A stretch of 64,000 nt of DNA from Halogeometricum pallidum JCM 14848 (GTDB taxonomy: Archaea > Halobacteriota > Halobacteria > Halobacteriales > Haloferacaceae). The number at the start of each line of letters is the position of its first letter. Positions within the stretch are counted from its first letter, which is position 1. Of this stretch, positions 15,005 through 38,091 are shown in pieces. Location: contig NZ_AOIV01000008.1 in the NCBI RefSeq assembly GCF_000337095.1, positions 124,001-188,000 on the forward strand. Direction: 5' to 3'. The notes under the pieces were generated by a model. The model did not search any database. It saw only the letters and a program-made list of their open reading frames with translations, and was not told the origin of the DNA. A program made the translations under genes and the position numbers.

Positions 15005-16339
15005 CTACTCGTCGCGTCGCAGTGCGAGCAAGCAGACGAGCAGGCTCATCGCCGCGAGCGAGGCGACGAAGCCGAATCCGGGCGTGGAGCCGTCGGTTCC
15101 CGTGCCGCCGGATTCGGTGTTGCTCTCCGACGCGGCAGCCGTCTCCTCCTCCGTCGCCGGAGCCGACGTGTCGGTCGGCGTGGCCGTCGACTCCGGCGTC
15201 GCGGTGGCCGTCGACTCGTTCGCCGCGACGGTCACGTTGCCGGCGGAGACGGAGTTGACGCCGAGGGCGTACGTTCCGGGTTCGTCGAAGCTGATGGAGA
15301 AGTTCACCCTGCGGCTCTCCCCTTCGTCTATCTCGACCGACCGACTGTACTCCGTCTCGTTCCCGTCGACGTACAGGCGCGCGTCGAACTCGCCGTCGGC
15401 GTCGCCGGAGTTCTCGACGAGTGCCGAGACGAGCACCGGGTCCCCGACGCTCCCGTTCGTCGCGTTGAGTTCGACCGATTCGACGGAGAACTCCGGTTCG
15501 TCCGACGAGTAGTCGCCGCCTCCGCCGCCGCTGCTACGGCTGCTGTCGTCGTCGTCATCGTCGCTACTGTCGTCGTTGCTGCTGTCCTCTTGCGCCGGGA
15601 CTGCCGTCTCCGTCTCGGTCTCTGTCGCGGTTTCCGTCTCCGTCTCGGTTTCGTTCTCTGTGACGGTCTCGGTTTCTGTCGCCGTCTCCGTGGCGGTTTC
15701 AGTCTCGTTCTCTGTGACGGTTTCCGTTTCTGTGCCCGTCTCGGTCTCTGTCGCAGTCTCAGTTTCCGTCTCCGTCTCTGTCTCCGTTGCAGTCTCGGTT
15801 TCGGTCGCCGTCGGCGTCGGCGTCTCGGCTGCCTCGACGTTCACGGTCACGTCGTTGAGCGTCTCCGGGGCGAACGTCTCGCCATCCGCGGAGGCGAACT
15901 TCGTCTCGGACTCCTCGAACGAGAGTGCGGTGCTCTCGTTCGCCTCGCCGGTCACTTCCAGCGTTATCTCGGCCAGCACGGGACCGTCCGCCTCAGAGGA
16001 GCGGATCTGGTTGAACGCGACGGTGCCGGCCTCGTTGTCGACGTTCGCGACCGGGTCGTCGAAGTCCTCGCTCCCCGAGACCGCTGTCACTTGGACGACG
16101 GCGGGGTCGAACGCGAGCGCCGTCTGATAGCCGCTCACGCCCGTGGCGTCCGTCCACACGCTCACCGTGACGGTCTCGCCCGGTTCCGCGGTCAGGGTCC
16201 CGTCCGGCGACGACGTGACCTCGTCCCCGACGCTGATCCCGGGGGCCGTCTGCGCCGCGACCGACGTCACGCCAGCCGGGAGGCCGACGAGCAGTACGAG
16301 GACGCAGCCGAGGACCAACGCCCTGTTCGCACCGCTCAT
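15005..16339 (-). CDS. cohesin-domain surface protein with PGF-CTERM anchor
   Basis: 444 residues. A Sec signal peptide (1-29, ending SVAAQ) is followed by a cohesin-type beta sandwich (about 34-168): GETVTVSVWTDATGVSGYQT, then LAFDPAVVQVTAVSG, GTVAFNQIRS and LAEITLEVTG. Next come a Thr/Glu-rich repeat (about 173-246), a poly-Asp/Ser linker, and a CARDB-like domain (about 284-370: DPVLVSALVENSGDADGEF). A Thr/Ser-rich stalk leads to the C-terminal sorting signal STPGFGF (PGF at 420-422), a hydrophobic helix and RRDE. PGF-CTERM proteins are cut and lipid-anchored by archaeosortase A (known for the family). It overlaps the upstream dockerin-bearing phosphoesterase gene by ATGA, so the two are translationally coupled and the domains are natural partners. 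Confidence 0.88.
   Translation of the reverse strand: MSGANRALVLGCVLVLLVGLPAGVTSVAAQTAPGISVGDEVTSSPDGTLTAEPGETVTVSVWTDATGVSGYQTALAFDPAVVQVTAVSGSEDFDDPVANVDNEAGTVAFNQIRSSEADGPVLAEITLEVTGEANESTALSFEESETKFASADGETFAPETLNDVTVNVEAAETPTPTATETETATETETETETETATETETGTETETVTENETETATETATETETVTENETETETETATETETETAVPAQEDSSNDDSSDDDDDDSSRSSGGGGGDYSSDEPEFSVESVELNATNGSVGDPVLVSALVENSGDADGEFDARLYVDGNETEYSRSVEIDEGESRRVNFSISFDEPGTYALGVNSVSAGNVTVAANESTATATPESTATPTDTSAPATEEETAAASESNTESGGTGTDGSTPGFGFVASLAAMSLLVCLLALRRDE
15601..15832 (-). repeat. low-complexity Thr/Glu-encoding repeat
   Basis: Degenerate 6-base units (gtctcg/gtttcc variants on the + strand) encode a (TE)n stretch in the cohesin protein, interrupted twice by TVTENETET. 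It probably forms an extended, possibly glycosylated spacer and could vary in copy number. Confidence 0.7.
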
Positions 16340-17568
16340 TGTCCTTCCTCGCTGATGTTGCGCGCGCGAATCGCATCGCCGATGTCCACGTCGCCGTCGT
16401 CGTCGACGTCCGCGGCCTCCGTGTTGATGTCGACATCCTCGCCGGCTATCGAGCGCTGGATGGCGTCGACGTCGTCGCTATCTACGTCGCCGTCGCCGTC
16501 GGCGTCCCCCGCGAGGGGGCCGTCCGAGGCGGATCCGAAGCGGGCGTCGAAGTCGAGGTCGAAGCCGAACTCGCTGTCCGCGTCCTCGAGGAACTCGTCG
16601 GTGCTCGGCGAGTACGTGTAGACCTGAATGCGGTCGGGGTCGTCCTCGCTCCCGCCTTCGCCCGGTTGGAATTGGACCTGTCGAAGGAGTCCGTACCCGC
16701 CGTTAGAGCGGTTCTGGAAGTCCGACAGCAGTTCGTACACCTCCTCGCCGTCGTCGTTCGACGAGACCTGATGCGCCTCGCCGTCGTCCCTGTGCCAGTG
16801 GCCGCAAAGCACCATGAACACCTGCGAGTTCGGCGCGATGAGCTTCTCCCACACCGTTTGACCCTCGGTTCCGATGCCGTTGTCCTCCTGTACCTGCAGG
16901 GTCCGACGCTGCGGATAATCCCGGAGATACGAGTGCGTGGTGACGATGGTCGGTCGGTCGGGGTACTGCTCGAGGACGCTCTGGGCCCATCCCAACGCCG
17001 TCGACGGGTCGTCTATCTCGCCCGGAACCTCCCACTCTAAGGCCAAGTGGAGGAAGTCGTAGCCGCCCGCGGAGAACAGTTGATAGGTGTTGAGGTCGTC
17101 GGGGCCCGCGCCGCCGAAGTAGCCCTCCCCTTCGTGCCGCGACGGCCCGAAGTACTGCTGGTAGTTCTCGATGGACGAAGTGCGGTCGCCTAACGACGCC
17201 CAGTCGTGGTTGCCCGGAAGCGTCGAGTAGGGAACGGTTCCGTCGAGCGGTGCGAGCGAATCGCTCATGTGCTCCCACTCCGCCTCGTCGTCGCCGTGTT
17301 CGACCACGTCGCCGAGGTGGCTCACGTAGGCGATGTTCTCCTCGTCACGCGCCGCGGCGATCCATTCGGCCTGGTCCCGCGGATACGACGTCTTGTCTTC
17401 GGCGTAGAACTGCGTGTCCGGGAGAGCGACGACGGTCCACGGTTCCGCGCTCTGGGCCGAACTCCCCGCCGCGCCGACTCCCGCCAGCGTCGCGCCGGCG
17501 CCCAGCGCTCGTAGGATCGTCCGTCTCGTTGGGCCCGACCATCCCGTCGCCTCGGAGTCGGCCGTCAT
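16336..17568 (-). CDS. Tat-exported calcineurin-like phosphoesterase with C-terminal dockerin
   Basis: 410 residues. Tat signal TRRTILRALGAGATL (14-28). Metallophosphoesterase core: PDTQFY (50-55), HLGDVVEHG (84-92), GNHDW (119-123), TTHSYL and CGHWHRDD, the full set of metal ligands for a two-metal site. The last 57 residues (354-410) form a type I dockerin: two EF-hand-like loops, DADGDGDVDSDDV and DVDDDGDVDIGDA, each followed by a helix (AIQRSIAG and AIRARNIS). Dockerins bind cohesins in a Ca2+-dependent way. The stop overlaps the ATG of the cohesin gene (ATGA). Substrate unknown; phosphomonoesters or phosphodiesters at the cell surface are plausible. Confidence 0.9.
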   Translation of the reverse strand: MTADSEATGWSGPTRRTILRALGAGATLAGVGAAGSSAQSAEPWTVVALPDTQFYAEDKTSYPRDQAEWIAAARDEENIAYVSHLGDVVEHGDDEAEWEHMSDSLAPLDGTVPYSTLPGNHDWASLGDRTSSIENYQQYFGPSRHEGEGYFGGAGPDDLNTYQLFSAGGYDFLHLALEWEVPGEIDDPSTALGWAQSVLEQYPDRPTIVTTHSYLRDYPQRRTLQVQEDNGIGTEGQTVWEKLIAPNSQVFMVLCGHWHRDDGEAHQVSSNDDGEEVYELLSDFQNRSNGGYGLLRQVQFQPGEGGSEDDPDRIQVYTYSPSTDEFLEDADSEFGFDLDFDARFGSASDGPLAGDADGDGDVDSDDVDAIQRSIAGEDVDINTEAADVDDDGDVDIGDAIRARNISEEGQ

Positions 17569-17981
17569 GCTACCACGCGCTCAGGCCGTGGTTCGGTCCG
17601 ATAAGCTGTGGTCCGTGTTTCGATATGCCGGCGCGCCGTGCGGAGTCGCTCCTGTGGTGTCGACTGTACGCCATAACCACTGTGGGGACTCCCTGGTGTT
17701 CGACTCATAGGCGGTTCTTACCTCGAATGTAATTCCTCGTTGACGGATAGTTATATATGAGTTAAATAAGCGTCTCCAAATCGGTATCCCAGTTAATCGG
17801 CGCTCTGTCGGGCGGCCCTCGGAGACACCGCGAAAATTGGTCTCCCTAATTGACATTTTGGGTCCCATCTGACCGGTTTCCGATACATCGATGCGGACGT
17901 GCCCGCCGGTGGAACCGGAGGTTGCCACTGGCTCCCGTCTTTCGGCCGCGGCCTCGACCCACCATCTCGCGGTCCGCTCGG
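17569..17981. other. gene-free stretch upstream of the phosphoesterase-cohesin unit
   Basis: About 410 bases. A TATA-like cttatcgg on the minus strand (about 17600-17608) could serve the phosphoesterase. The middle (17730-17870) is AT-rich (agttatatatgagttaaataag) and could hold a further promoter or a remnant of mobile DNA. A 115-codon minus-strand frame at 17581-17928 has no recognisable motif and was not called. Confidence 0.35.
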
Positions 17982-19118
17982 TCAGTCGGACGCCTCGACG
18001 GTTCTCCGCGGTTCGAGCGACTCTATCATCTCAACGACCTCCGTGTCGAGTCCGTGTTCGGTCCAGTCGCGCTCCCGCGGGATTCGGGCGCGGTGCGTCC
18101 CGACGTCCTCGAACAGTTCCTCGAACACCTCACGTTCGCGCTGGATAACCTCGTCCAGCGAGTCGACCATGGTGCCGTCGCTGACCAGGGAGTCGTAGGC
18201 GTGGAAGTACTCTCTGAGCCGGCCGTCCCACTCGAAGTTGCAGATGGAGGTGATTCCCTTCATCGCCTCCTCCGTCGAGATGGGTTCGCTGGTGATGTGG
18301 TCGTTGTTGGGCGCCGCCTGCAGGAACACGATGTTGTCGACCGAGGAGTGCTCGACGTACTCCGCGGTGGAGTACAGCGAGCCGACGTCCGTGAAGTCGC
18401 GGCCGTCGTCGGAGAGGAACTTCCCGTTCAGGTAGAGAAGCGCCGTCGCCGGCAGTTGGTTCGCGCCGCCGAACCGGTCGTTGACGTACTCGTGGACCTC
18501 GTGGCGCAGTCGGTCTTTCAGCGAGTCGTGCGTGAGTTCCACCTCGGAGAACGACTCGATGTTGTAGGGCTGGAGGTTCACGCCCAGCGGGTAGCCGGAC
18601 GCCTCGCCGTCCGCACCGACCCAGAGCCGGTCGTCCGAGAGGAAGTTCGCGCCCTCGCGGAGCAGCGAGAGGAGCGTGTTCGTCTTGCCGGCTCCGCGCC
18701 AGGCCGGGAACAGCGTCGTCTGCCCGTTCAACTGGACGCCGGAAGCGTGTACGAGCGCCTTGCCCTGTTCGACCATCCGCTTGCGTATCTCGAACTCCAT
18801 CGGGTAGATGGCGTAGAACGGCTCGAATCCCGGCGTGACCTGGATATGGTTCCATCCGGGCGTGACCGCCATGAACGAGGAGCCGTTCCGGATCACGAAC
18901 TGCTCGCCCGTCCAGCCGTAGTAGTCGTTCGGGTCGCCGAGCACGACGTCGGGGTCGACGTCCTTCGTGGTCTCCTCGATGACCATATCGGGCTCGCGCG
19001 TCGGCGAGGTCACCCGGAAGTGGCCGTACATCTTCTGGAACTGCTCGTCCGTCCGTCCGCCGGAGCCGCTCACTTCGACCAACAGCCCGTTGAAGAACTC
19101 GTAGTAATGTTTACTCAT
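17982..19118 (-). CDS. HPr-kinase-like P-loop protein
   Basis: 378 residues, soluble. Walker A AWRGAGKT (139-146) follows LVHASGVQLNGQTTLFP, which matches the strand-loop before the P-loop in HprK-type kinases (they act on a 'stored' protein or small-molecule substrate, not on DNA). NFLSDDRLWVG (159-168) is the likely Asp-containing motif after the P-loop. The N-terminal 130 residues resemble the regulatory part of HprK-related proteins in exopolysaccharide loci. No HPr/PTS gene is near. It opens the polysaccharide region. Substrate unknown; phosphorylation of a sugar or protein is inferred only. Confidence 0.65.
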   Translation of the reverse strand: MSKHYYEFFNGLLVEVSGSGGRTDEQFQKMYGHFRVTSPTREPDMVIEETTKDVDPDVVLGDPNDYYGWTGEQFVIRNGSSFMAVTPGWNHIQVTPGFEPFYAIYPMEFEIRKRMVEQGKALVHASGVQLNGQTTLFPAWRGAGKTNTLLSLLREGANFLSDDRLWVGADGEASGYPLGVNLQPYNIESFSEVELTHDSLKDRLRHEVHEYVNDRFGGANQLPATALLYLNGKFLSDDGRDFTDVGSLYSTAEYVEHSSVDNIVFLQAAPNNDHITSEPISTEEAMKGITSICNFEWDGRLREYFHAYDSLVSDGTMVDSLDEVIQREREVFEELFEDVGTHRARIPRERDWTEHGLDTEVVEMIESLEPRRTVEASD

Positions 19119-27301: not shown

Positions 27302-27376
27302 ATGAACGACAACGTTACCACCCGACCGAATCGCCTGCCGACCGACGACCCGACCAGCGGAGGGGACGGGCAATGA
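27302..27376 (+). CDS. possible 24-residue ORF coupled to the next gene
   Basis: ATG 27302 opens a 24-codon frame (MNDNVTTRPNRLPTDDPTSG...). Its TGA overlaps the ATG of the following membrane-protein gene as ATGA. It starts 12 bases after the DUF1616 stop, so it may carry ribosomes from one gene to the next. No homology recognised. Confidence 0.3.
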   Translation: MNDNVTTRPNRLPTDDPTSGGDGQ

Positions 27377-29196
27377 GCAGGTCCTCGATCCGCAGACCGG
27401 TTACGAGATGGCTCGTGACCGCCGGGTTCGCGCTCGTCGTCGCGCTGACGTACATCCTGTTCTCGACGCCGTCGGCGAGCGCCTACGAGATGTCCATCTA
27501 CGAGGCGTACCCGTGGTACTTCTGGGCGCTGGCTGTGCTCGCGCTTCTCATCGGCCACTACGCCGTCCTCGAACGCGCCTTCGGCGGGGAGTCCGAACGC
27601 GGGGCGTGGCGACTCGGCCTGCTGTTGATACTGGTGGTCGAGGCGCTCCTGCTGTTGCTTCCGTACTTCAGGGGCTATCCGGTGTTCGGGCGCGGCGACG
27701 TGCTGACCCACGTCGGTCAGATCGTCACCATCCAGGCCACCGGCATCGCCGGTCAGCAGGACATCTACCCGAACCTGCACTTCCTCGTGCTGAGCTTCTC
27801 GTACGCGAGCGGCGTTAAGCCGTTACACCTCATCAACTCCGTCGCGGTCGTCATCTCGCTGTTCTCGCTCGCGGCGTCGTTCGCCCTGATTTCGACGGTG
27901 TACGACAGGACGCGAGCGCTCCTGTCGCTGCCGTTCGTGACCCTGCTCATCGGCGGAACGGCGCACGTGAACCCCTCGCCCTACCCGCAGAGCGTCCTGC
28001 TGATCCCGTTCGTCCTCTATCTGTTCTTCAAAGAGCAGCGGACCCGGTCGACTGCGGTCCGAGTCGCCCTCGTCGTCACCGCCGCGGCGATGGTCGTCTA
28101 CCATCCGCTGACGACGCTGTTCCTCCTGTTCATCTTCGGCGTCTACACCGCCGCGAAGTTCGTCCACGACCAGGGGATACTGACTGGGGAGTCCGTCGAG
28201 TGGCGCAGCGCGGTCGGCGCGACTCCCGTCGCCCACCTCGCGCTGGGGATGTTCGCCGCGTGGTACCTCGATTTCTCGCAGGTGACCGGGAAGATACAGA
28301 CGGTCGTGCAGACGTTCGCCGCCTCCGAGGGCGGCACGTCCACGCTCGAGTCCTACGGTTCGACCGTCTCGCAGGCGAGTCCGGCGCTGACCGACCTCGT
28401 CCGCATCGGACTCGTCAAATACGGGATGTCCGTCATCCTGCTCTCGCTCGCGGGTCTCTACGCGCTCTGGACCCTCTCGTCGCCGGACCGCCGCCGCGAC
28501 CTCGGCATCTATCGGACGACGTTCCTCGGCGGGTTCGCGCTGTTCGCCGGCCTCGCGGTCCCGTTCTTGGTCATGGACCTCGTGGTCGGGTTCGGCCGAC
28601 CGCTCATGCTCGCTCGCATCTTCGCCGCGCTGCTCGCCGGGTCGCTGTTCTACGTGCTCTACCGTTCGGCCGACGCGAACGGGAAGCGCGTCGTCCAGGT
28701 CGGCTGCTATCTCGTGTTGGCCTGTCTCGTCGTCATCAGCACGTTCGGACTCTACTACTCGCCGTACGCCATCGAGCGGAACCACCAGGTGACGAGCGCC
28801 GAACTCGACGGGGCCGACTGGACGCTGGAGTTCCGAGAGCCCGACAACCCGACGATACAGTACGGAATCAACCTCCGTCGGTTCCGCGACGCGCTGTACG
28901 GGACGGCGGGCTACACGGAGGACGAGGTCATTCCGGCCAGCACCACCGTCGGACCGCCGCCACACTTCAACTACACCGAACACGACACGCTCGGTGCCAG
29001 CTACGAGGAGGACCGGTACATGATCATCACCCGGAGCGGGCGCATCTTCTACGAGGAGATGTACCCCGACTACCGGGAGTTCTGGCAGTTCAACGACGGG
29101 GACTACGAGCGCCTCGAACGCGACGGGACGGTGTCGCACGTCTACGCCAACGGCGGCTACGACACCTACCTCGTCAACAGCACTCTGGCCGGATGA
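27373..29196 (+). CDS. polytopic membrane protein, possible GT-C glycosyltransferase
   Basis: 607 residues with about twelve transmembrane helices and a soluble C-terminal part (about 470-607). The first large loop contains YPVFGRGDVLTHVGQIVT, with an acidic pair in the position where GT-C enzymes bind a dolichol-phosphate sugar donor (inference). The C-terminal part has HFNYTEHDTLGASYEEDRY and LVNSTLAG. It follows the DUF1616 gene, probably in one transcript. It could be a polymerase, ligase or sugar transferase. Not recognised more precisely. Confidence 0.6.
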   Translation: MSRSSIRRPVTRWLVTAGFALVVALTYILFSTPSASAYEMSIYEAYPWYFWALAVLALLIGHYAVLERAFGGESERGAWRLGLLLILVVEALLLLLPYFRGYPVFGRGDVLTHVGQIVTIQATGIAGQQDIYPNLHFLVLSFSYASGVKPLHLINSVAVVISLFSLAASFALISTVYDRTRALLSLPFVTLLIGGTAHVNPSPYPQSVLLIPFVLYLFFKEQRTRSTAVRVALVVTAAAMVVYHPLTTLFLLFIFGVYTAAKFVHDQGILTGESVEWRSAVGATPVAHLALGMFAAWYLDFSQVTGKIQTVVQTFAASEGGTSTLESYGSTVSQASPALTDLVRIGLVKYGMSVILLSLAGLYALWTLSSPDRRRDLGIYRTTFLGGFALFAGLAVPFLVMDLVVGFGRPLMLARIFAALLAGSLFYVLYRSADANGKRVVQVGCYLVLACLVVISTFGLYYSPYAIERNHQVTSAELDGADWTLEFREPDNPTIQYGINLRRFRDALYGTAGYTEDEVIPASTTVGPPPHFNYTEHDTLGASYEEDRYMIITRSGRIFYEEMYPDYREFWQFNDGDYERLERDGTVSHVYANGGYDTYLVNSTLAG

Positions 29197-35863: not shown

Positions 35864-36856
35864 CTATAGGTAGCCGAGTTTCTCCAGTCGCTCTTGGACG
35901 TCGTAGTCTGCGTCGGTCTGTCTGGCCACGTCCACGTCGGGCACCTCCTCGCCGGTATCGGTGCCGGTGGCGAGGGCCCATGGGACCCGCTTCAGGTCGG
36001 GGTGGACGAACCCCTCGGGGTGGCCGTAGCCGCCCATCTCGCCGAACAGGTCGCCGTGGTCGGCCGTGATGACGACCCGCTTGGCGTCGATATTCTGTAG
36101 GAGCCTTTCGATGTCGTCGAGAACGAAGCGCAGGTTGTCCATGTACAGTTCCCACGCTTCCTCCTTGGTCGCCCGTCCCTGCATCATCTCCCGCCACGGG
36201 TCGTCTTCTAACGGCGTCAGCGTCCGCTTCTCGCGGTGCGCGTCGGCGATGTACGGCGTGTGCGGTTGGAAGTAGTGCAGCACCATCCGCTCTGTGGGGT
36301 CCTCGCGAGCCATCTGGATGGCGTAATCGGTGACCACCTCCGGCGGCGGCGCGGTGAAGTACTCGTCGTAGTCGTGTCGGTGTATCTGGAGGAGGTTCCC
36401 GAACGCGGACTTCTCGACCACGTCCCAGTCCGCCCACATCAGGGGGACGGCGTACGACTTCGGCGGGAACACGCGGTCGTCGAACGTCTGCGGGACGAAC
36501 GGGTTCGTCGTGACGAGCGACGTCTTCTCTATCTCCGAGCGGTACTCGTTGGTGAACGTCTTGCAGATCCACTCGTGGGAGGCGCTCCCGACCGACCAGA
36601 TGGAGCTGACGAGTTCGAGGTAGTCGTACTCGGGGGCGACCGCGCGGAGGGCGTCGAGTCGGCAGGCGTCGAGAACGATGAGGAGGTCCCACTCCCGTTC
36701 GTAGATGTTGGTTCCGAGGGGATATCGAGTCGTTAGCGAGAAGTAGGGGCCGTTGAACGCGCCGCGGAGGGACTTCAACAGGGCTTGCTTCGGACTACTC
36801 CCGCTTCTGACTTCCGAGGGGAACTCTCTGAGCCACGCTCGGATGTCGGTGTGCAT
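35864..36856 (-). CDS. alkaline phosphatase superfamily protein (sulfatase-like)
   Basis: 330 residues, shorter than classical sulfatases. LLIVLDACRLDALRAVAPEY gives the first metal-ligand/nucleophile region (DACR) and VVITADHGDLFGEMGGYGHP the second. LHYFQPHTPYIADAHREK is the usual HxxP-type block. No signal peptide seen. It shares this layout with the gene at 37180, so the two are probably distant paralogues. Substrate unknown. Confidence 0.75.
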   Translation of the reverse strand: MHTDIRAWLREFPSEVRSGSSPKQALLKSLRGAFNGPYFSLTTRYPLGTNIYEREWDLLIVLDACRLDALRAVAPEYDYLELVSSIWSVGSASHEWICKTFTNEYRSEIEKTSLVTTNPFVPQTFDDRVFPPKSYAVPLMWADWDVVEKSAFGNLLQIHRHDYDEYFTAPPPEVVTDYAIQMAREDPTERMVLHYFQPHTPYIADAHREKRTLTPLEDDPWREMMQGRATKEEAWELYMDNLRFVLDDIERLLQNIDAKRVVITADHGDLFGEMGGYGHPEGFVHPDLKRVPWALATGTDTGEEVPDVDVARQTDADYDVQERLEKLGYL

Positions 36857-37030: not shown

Positions 37031-37183
37031 ATGACGCTCTCCACTCCCCGTGGAAACTCGCCCGTCGGCGCTCCCGACGCGATTCGACGACGAGGACCAG
37101 CGGTCGCGACCACGACCGCGACCGTTCGAGAGCCGACAGCATCGACCGAGACCCGACTCGCGACCGACGGGGGCCGCCGATGA
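37031..37183 (+). CDS. possible 50-residue leader ORF coupled to the sulfatase-like gene
   Basis: ATG 37031 begins right where a leaderless transcript from the TATA box at 36996-37006 would start. The 50-codon frame (MTLSTPRGNSPVGAPDAIRR...) ends in TGA overlapping the ATG of the next gene as ATGA. The product is Thr/Arg/Ala-rich with no recognised domain. Promoter position and overlap favour translation; the lack of any motif does not exclude chance. Confidence 0.4.
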   Translation: MTLSTPRGNSPVGAPDAIRRRGPAVATTTATVREPTASTETRLATDGGRR

Positions 37184-38091
37184 TACTCTGGGATCGAATC
37201 CGGGAGAACCCGGAGCTACTCACTCGGGCCCTCCGAGACCCCGGTCTGGTCGGACTCGGACTCAACCGGGCGTACTACGACCGAATGAGCAACAGCCAGT
37301 ACAACACGATGGGGACGGACGTCTTCGAAGACGAGGACTGGGACAACCTCATCCTCCTGGACGCCTGCCGGGCGGACGTCTACGCCGAGATGACGCCGTT
37401 CGCAGGCGCCCCTGAAACCCGGCAGTCCCGAGGAAGCGCGAGCAAGCAGTTCGTCCGCGGAAACTTCCAGAACAAGCGGCTCCACGACGTGGTGTACATC
37501 TCCGGGAACCGCTGGTATCTCCAGCTACAGGAGGAACTGAACTGCGAACTCCACGCGTACCACGACGTCGAACGGGACGTCGCGGACGGCTTCGTCCCCA
37601 GTCCCGAGGCGGTCACCCAGGCCGTCTTGGACCTCAAGGACGAGTACCCGAACAAGCGGCTCCTCATCCACTACATGCAGCCGCACTACCCGTACCTCGA
37701 CACCGACAACGACGCGTTCGACCTCGACAGGACTGGCCTCCGGGAGACGGTCCGCGGGAGCGACGTGACCTACGAGGACGTCCGAGAGGCGTACCGGTCG
37801 AACCTCCGATACGTCCTCGAACACGTTCAGACGCTCATCGAGGAACTCGACGGCAAGACCGTCATCAGCTCGGACCACGGCGAGATGCTTGGGGACCGAC
37901 TCACGCCGTTCCCGGTCCGTTGGGTCGGCCACCCGCCGGGCATCTTCACCGACAAGCTGGTGACGGTCCCCTGGCACGTCGTCGCCGACGGCCCGCGCCG
38001 GACCGTCACCGCGGACCCGCCGGTCTCGTCGGACGCCGTCGACATGGCTGAAGTCGAACAGAACCTCAAAGACCTCGGCTACAAGGTGTAA
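37180..38091 (+). CDS. alkaline phosphatase superfamily protein (sulfatase-like)
   Basis: 303 residues. DNLILLDACRADVYAEMTPF (metal/nucleophile region with DACR), LIHYMQPHYPYLDTDND, and TVISSDHGEMLGDRL (second metal site) parallel the gene at 35864. The N-terminus ILWDRIRENPELLTRALR is helical, with no signal peptide. Coupled by ATGA to a short upstream frame. Substrate unknown. Confidence 0.75.
   Translation: MILWDRIRENPELLTRALRDPGLVGLGLNRAYYDRMSNSQYNTMGTDVFEDEDWDNLILLDACRADVYAEMTPFAGAPETRQSRGSASKQFVRGNFQNKRLHDVVYISGNRWYLQLQEELNCELHAYHDVERDVADGFVPSPEAVTQAVLDLKDEYPNKRLLIHYMQPHYPYLDTDNDAFDLDRTGLRETVRGSDVTYEDVREAYRSNLRYVLEHVQTLIEELDGKTVISSDHGEMLGDRLTPFPVRWVGHPPGIFTDKLVTVPWHVVADGPRRTVTADPPVSSDAVDMAEVEQNLKDLGYKV

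Follow-up and report, generated by a model that had tools for sequence, protein, structure and literature searches.

In a 64,000-nucleotide stretch of Halogeometricum pallidum JCM 14848 DNA, which belongs to contig C8 of an assembly of 4.38 Mb from a haloarchaeon and is referred to here as the window, two overlapping genes encode an exported metallophosphoesterase (MPE) that ends in a type I dockerin and an anchor protein that carries a single cohesin. The pair is read as a one-enzyme surface tether, in which the dockerin-bearing MPE is probably held at the cell surface by the anchored cohesin protein. A single cohesin holds one enzyme, which makes the arrangement a tether and not a scaffold. 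An initial annotation, made from the sequence of the window, had proposed a matched cohesin-dockerin pair with a phosphoesterase as cargo, and this proposal is borne out by the domain profiles and the cohesin model described below. It had missed the CARDB domain of the anchor and a conserved third gene for an HprK-like protein, so that the pair is now seen as part of a larger conserved cassette. The features of the two genes are as follows, in window positions.

16336..17568, minus strand: MPE-dockerin gene, an open reading frame (ORF) of 410 amino acids (aa) for the Tat-exported MPE
17452..17568, minus strand: Tat signal sequence (TRRTILRALG), read from the sequence
16789..17382, minus strand: Metallophos catalytic core, residues 63-260 (PF00149, 46.8 bits, cut-off 21.5)
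16372..16512, minus strand: type I dockerin with two Ca loops, residues 353-399 (PF00404)
15005..16339, minus strand: cohesin-CARDB-PGF-CTERM anchor gene, an ORF of 444 aa for the Sec-exported partner
16253..16339, minus strand: Sec-type signal peptide, residues 1-29, read from the sequence
15836..16198, minus strand: single cohesin domain (PF00963, 39.0-39.3 bits for the domain alone and in the genome search, cut-off 24.1)
15485..15829, minus strand: low-complexity linker rich in Thr (30%) and Glu (25%), from composition
15233..15496, minus strand: CARDB (Ig-like) domain (PF07705, 35 bits, cut-off 22.7)
15014..15097, minus strand: PGF-CTERM archaeosortase sorting signal (TIGR04126, 26.1 bits in the genome search, cut-off 24.5)

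The upstream product had been called a Tat-exported calcineurin-like phosphoesterase, and the Tat motif, the PF00149 match and the binuclear fold all agree with that name. The five motifs of the binuclear metal site are present, namely PDTQ(50), GD(86), GNHD(119), H(212) and GHWH(256), and no residue is missing from the metal-ligand set (D/Q/D/N/H/D/H/H/H). An AlphaFold2 (AF2) model of the MPE, with a predicted local distance difference test (pLDDT) score of 87.7, counts GpdQ (Z 19.6), purple acid phosphatase (Z 20.6) and Lmo2642 (Z 21.4) among its nearest folds, which span Z 19.5-21.4. The catalytic-domain fold and the binuclear ligand set are shared with these three enzymes, whereas sequence identity to them is 13-18% and the first motif reads D-x-Q throughout the MPE family of the window. 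In GpdQ the first motif is D-x-H.

The C-terminal domain had been described as a type I dockerin with two Ca2+ loops, and it scores above the PF00404 cut-off of 22.9 bits when scanned alone (25.2 bits) and in the genome search (24.0 bits), and below it within a whole-protein scan (20.1 bits). Two complete 12-residue Ca loops are found at residues 355-366 (DADGDGDVDSDD) and 387-398 (DVDDDGDVDIGD). Across an alignment of 21 dockerins, neither repeat varies at loop positions 1, 5, 6 and 12, of which the first, fifth and twelfth are Asp, and the dockerin profile retrieves cellulosomal dockerins from the PDB, e.g. that of CelS (2mte, E 6e-13). At loop positions 10-11 the first repeat has Ser-Asp where the second has Ile-Gly, and the sequence symmetry of the residues used in the dual binding mode is thus absent. 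Symmetric recognition residues are common, not universal, in type I dockerins, and since accepted dockerins without symmetry exist, the asymmetry does not exclude the domain from the family. Dockerins that start with YEDVNGDG or a similar sequence recur across haloarchaea.

The anchor gene shares an ATGA start/stop overlap with the MPE gene, and the initial annotation was correct in describing its product as a Sec-exported protein with a cohesin and a PGF-CTERM signal. The cohesin was not listed by a whole-protein hmmscan and scored 39.3 bits when the domain was scanned alone, probably because of the way HMMER handles the biased composition of the Thr/Glu-rich linker. By profile and by predicted fold the domain is a true cohesin. 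Its AF2 model (pLDDT 92.6, predicted TM-score (pTM) 0.87) has cohesins or cohesin-like modules, A. fulgidus included, as all of its top 31 Foldseek matches; the best structural Z values include 16.9 for 4uyp and 15.7 for A. fulgidus 2xdh; and every solved structure retrieved by a profile of 52 haloarchaeal cohesins is itself a cohesin (best E 5e-16). These profile and fold matches rule out membership in another beta-sandwich family, which the initial annotation had raised as the outcome that would tell against a cohesin. The C-terminus has a PGF motif, a hydrophobic helix and a basic tail (PGFGFVASLAAMSLLVCLLALRRDE), with TIGR04126 just below its cut-off within a whole-protein scan (22.0 bits), and ArtA is encoded elsewhere in the genome, on C42 (TIGR04125, 349 bits). 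Of the lipid-anchored scaffold that had been envisaged, the ArtA-type anchored partner stands and the scaffold does not, as the anchor has one cohesin.

The search for further dockerins that had been recommended found three dockerin proteins in the whole genome, together with two single-cohesin proteins. Each of the two cohesins lies within ~180 bp of a dockerin, and the estimated chance of both cohesins falling <=500 bp from a dockerin is ~5e-7. The second pair is on C21 (L094, G000:C21:194000-208000) and encodes an MPE-CBM96-dockerin protein followed by a cohesin-CARDB-PGF-CTERM protein, with the same order and overlap. Identity between the two pairs is 75% for the cohesin and 80% for the dockerin, and at this level the window and C21 pairs may cross-bind. 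Two of the three dockerin cargoes are metallophosphoesterases and one is an FG-GAP repeat protein. A cellulosome or scaffold reading was rejected, since only single cohesins occur in the genome and the cargoes are not plant-cell-wall-degrading. Separately, the third dockerin (L121:4228-5850; G000:C21:112227-113849) ends a protein with seven FG-GAP repeats and has no cohesin beside it. The genome also encodes a third MPE-CBM96 protein (L095), which has no dockerin.

The coupling of the two genes is conserved. The MPE domain was searched in 293 genomes of the window's order, and the loci were scanned with cohesin, dockerin, MPE, CBM96 and CARDB models. This gave fourteen dockerin-bearing MPE genes, of which Haloarcula accounts for seven, the window's genome for two and Halorubrum sp. 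CSM-61 for one; the remaining four belong to further members of the window's family. A cohesin gene lies directly downstream of all 14, and in 12 of the pairs its start overlaps the MPE stop by four bases, as ATGA or GTGA. No cohesin gene was present in the scanned flanks of eight dockerin-less haloarchaeal MPE homologues (0/8), nor at bacterial MPE loci, and five genomes with only a dockerin-less MPE (G099, G106, G108, G225 and G268) gave no match in the cohesin search. A Fisher test of the 14 versus 8 loci gives p = 1/C(22,8), ~3e-6, for loci that are not independent; because the loci are related, the association of dockerin and cohesin is strong, and its tally is not a count of independent events. 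About three gains or losses of the dockerin are needed on the MPE tree. At L104 the dockerin and the cohesin are both absent and a second CBM96 is found instead, while the sister locus L103 has both. Every dockerin-bearing MPE has a Tat motif, with its RR pair N-terminal to the catalytic domain (14/14), and the cohesin partners carry Sec-type leaders. A CBM96 is found in 11/14 of the enzymes (checked with Pfam for L094). Among the papers searched, none was found that describes this haloarchaeal cassette, that joins cohesin, dockerin and Haloarcula, or that mentions the cohesin domain together with halophilic archaea.

The third conserved gene lies upstream of the pair on the same strand.

17982..19118, minus strand: HprK-like P-loop protein of 378 aa, a recurring neighbour across loci
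17569..17981, minus strand: intergenic region of 413 bp between the HprK-like and MPE genes, read from the sequence

The intergenic region contains a TATA-like stretch (TTATTTAACTCATATATAACT), a possible promoter of the MPE/cohesin pair. An HprK-like gene adjoins 13 of the 14 pairs, the exception being the C21 paralogue, alongside which none was seen. It is mostly upstream on the same strand, with a downstream position on the same strand at L107 and a convergent orientation at L112. Strong homologues (E < 1e-80) occur in 14 genomes of the order, comprising the 12 searched genomes with the pair, G268, where the gene is beside a dockerin-less MPE, and G204, in which no MPE was found. The neighbour is also retained at L104. 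There, as in G268, HprK-like and MPE genes seem to stay linked where cohesin and dockerin do not. The protein has no apparent export signal in its sequence. The segment from the P-loop to an Asp-Asp stretch matches HprK_rel_B (TIGR04355) at E 8e-8, its 31.7 bits falling far short of the 200-bit cut-off, and GKTNT and DDR.W (GKTNT...DDR.W) are invariant in 11 homologues. No Pfam family was matched up to E 10 save for unrelated weak matches, and no PDB relative was found. From these motifs the product is assigned no further than HprK-like, or kinase-like.

Taken as a surface tether, the pair would work in the following way. The phosphoesterase would acquire its fold and its metals in the cytoplasm and exit by the Tat route, and the cohesin protein would exit unfolded by Sec, after which ArtA would cut and lipid-anchor it at the PGF-CTERM. 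Processing by ArtA and lipid attachment of PGF-CTERM proteins have been summarised (PMC8875312). The Thr/Glu-rich stalk, which is probably glycosylated, and the CARDB domain would hold the cohesin off the membrane. The dockerin would fold around two Ca2+, dock on the cohesin and retain the enzyme at the cell surface, where the tethered binuclear phosphoesterase would remove phosphate outside the cell. Tat exports its passengers in folded form, whereas an anchor of this kind has to be threaded through unfolded, with processing at the C-terminal end. The Tat and Sec/ArtA routes meet only extracellularly; this would account for the anchor being a protein of its own. Within the cell, the HprK-like protein probably acts in the same pathway.

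Several observations weigh against the tether or against its carrying an active, glycan-directed enzyme in every case. In the C21 paralogue of the MPE, Tyr replaces the last metal His, and the window MPE lacks the CBM96 found in most of its relatives; carbohydrate targeting and activity need not therefore hold for every copy. The anchor at L103 has no PGF motif, with only a hydrophobic tail at its C-terminus. With the MPE domain as control in a mirror-tree analysis, the coevolution signal left between cohesin and dockerin is weak and no more than suggestive (partial r 0.26, p 0.10). The Haloarcula cassettes adjoin housekeeping genes and not a polysaccharide cluster, and haloarchaeal dockerins are also found in genomes without a detected cohesin.

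The substrate of the MPE is tentatively placed among phosphorylated surface polysaccharides or glycans, because CBM96 is frequent in the family and polysaccharide genes surround the cassette. In the window, positions 18000-45400 are occupied by a cluster for polysaccharide biosynthesis or modification that adjoins the cassette and, by Pfam, includes a flippase, three glycosyltransferases, a heparinase II/III, a sulfatase, pectate-lyase-like proteins, CBM6/35 and a GFO/IDH/MocA oxidoreductase; for three ORFs of the cluster (27373-29196, 35864-36856 and 37180-38091) Pfam gave nothing at E 0.001. Neighbours at L107 and L112 resemble glycosyltransferases or a flippase, which places polysaccharide genes in or near three divergent loci. 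Environmental organophosphates are less certainly the substrate. On this second view the tethered phosphatase would serve nutrient scavenging, freeing phosphate for uptake from extracellular organophosphates or nucleotides and retaining what is released close to the cell, with the HprK-like gene as a mere neighbour. Scavenging is a possible reading, though rather an unlikely one. It would suit the Tat export, the complete binuclear site and the fold class of purple acid phosphatase, GpdQ and Lmo2642, many members of which use small organophosphates, but a glycan or other dedicated substrate fits better with the CBM96 domains, the polysaccharide clusters at the three loci and the persistence of the HprK-like partner. 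No phosphate transporter or Pho-type gene was present among the window neighbours examined by Pfam. A more speculative extension of the tether, which we consider unlikely, is a phosphate-editing device across the membrane, in which the HprK-like kinase might phosphorylate a cytoplasmic glycan precursor, lipid or protein and the tethered MPE might remove or trim this phosphate after export, so regulating the maturation of surface polysaccharide.

It has also to be considered that the dockerin serves another role, such as Ca-dependent folding, self-association or substrate binding, and that the cohesin binds something else. Orphan dockerins of the kind noted above are many, and dockerins on haloarchaeal glycan-degrading enzymes have been ascribed to substrate binding by authors in whose papers the word cohesin is absent (PMC10963439, PMC13260240). 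The joint gain and loss of dockerin and cohesin gene (14/14 versus 0/8) is not predicted by a self-sufficient dockerin, and such a role is considered improbable here. Mere inherited synteny, i.e. the spread by gene transfer of one ancestral locus whose genes have no functional link, has in its favour that most of the 14 loci fall in one clade and seven in one genus and are not independent, but it is very improbable given that the HprK-like gene changes position and yet stays alongside, that flanking genes vary between genera, and that dockerin and cohesin are missing together at L104 with the HprK-like neighbour kept.

The closest known counterpart of the tether is the pair AF2375/AF2376 of A. 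fulgidus (2XDH), which are neighbouring ORFs whose products bind specifically (PMC9705933). Both are side-by-side, non-cellulosomal archaeal pairs of one cohesin and one dockerin, and the cohesin models superpose with a root-mean-square deviation of 1.9 over 124 residues at ~19% sequence identity. The window pair differs in its Tat-exported MPE cargo, the CARDB and PGF-CTERM of the partner, its haloarchaeal host and the conserved HprK-like gene. The cellulosome surface anchors OlpA and OlpC resemble it in the type I dockerin class, in the fold of the cohesin (Z 14.9 to OlpA 3ul4 and 14.5 to OlpC 4dh2) and, if the tether is correct, in an anchored cohesin that holds one enzyme. They differ in having a bacterial S-layer-type anchor instead of ArtA/PGF-CTERM, while the window cargo is not a glycoside hydrolase and its genome has no scaffoldin. 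In anaerobic methanotrophic (ANME) archaea, proteins with cohesins or dockerins are numerous (PMC5244752, PMC9012536), with <=5 cohesins per protein (PMC9012536), and what these archaea have in common with the window's probable tether is the use of such domains at an archaeal surface with non-cellulase cargo; their cargo is commonly an ABC-transporter binding protein and multi-cohesin proteins occur, whereas the window has a dedicated enzyme-anchor gene pair. The initial annotation had stated that such pairs are known from few archaeal cases. This is not upheld: of 293 genomes of the order, 96 encode cohesins and 121 encode dockerins, besides the many in ANME. The function of cohesin-dockerin modules outside cellulosomes is described as not established (PMC5244752) and their implications as unclear (PMC9012536).

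Other cohesin-dockerin systems were observed in haloarchaea. Two genomes of one genus encode PGF-type anchored scaffoldin-like proteins with 14, 8 and 3 cohesins, in clusters with many S8 subtilases that end in cohesin-dockerin or dockerin (G264:C1, L116:9165-15431 and L117; G087:C1, L115:2560-6339 and L114). From sequence, these clusters are putative archaeal counterparts of a cellulosome built for proteases. The passage of PMC9012536 that cites Peer et al. 2009 describes archaea as lacking large scaffoldins. Set against this and the <=5 cohesins of ANME proteins, a 14-cohesin archaeal scaffoldin with protease cargo merits a study of its own and is possibly a larger find than the window cassette. 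A two-gene unit also recurs in many other haloarchaea (e.g. L118, L119, L120, L122 and L127, in G273, G281, G113, G251 and G112), with a protein of ~1100 aa that has a C-terminal cohesin and dockerin and, next to it, a small cohesin protein ending in a hydrophobic segment; at L118 the larger protein is a subtilase with CarboxypepD_reg (Pfam). A separate and widespread class of haloarchaeal single-cohesin proteins has a GHGGEG-like motif (L019, L020, L023, L024, L027, L030, L032, L033, L124 and L125); scans of L124 and L125 as extended loci showed neither a dockerin nor an MPE gene in the vicinity.

The cassette offers a simple case of a cohesin-dockerin system in cultured Haloarcula and Halorubrum, with one dockerin enzyme and one anchored cohesin that are co-encoded and co-lost. 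To this it adds a conserved kinase-like partner, and it bears on Ca2+ docking in molar salt. It suggests a general reason for dividing enzyme and anchor between two genes, in that a Tat-folded enzyme may be joined outside the cell to a stalk anchored through Sec and ArtA.

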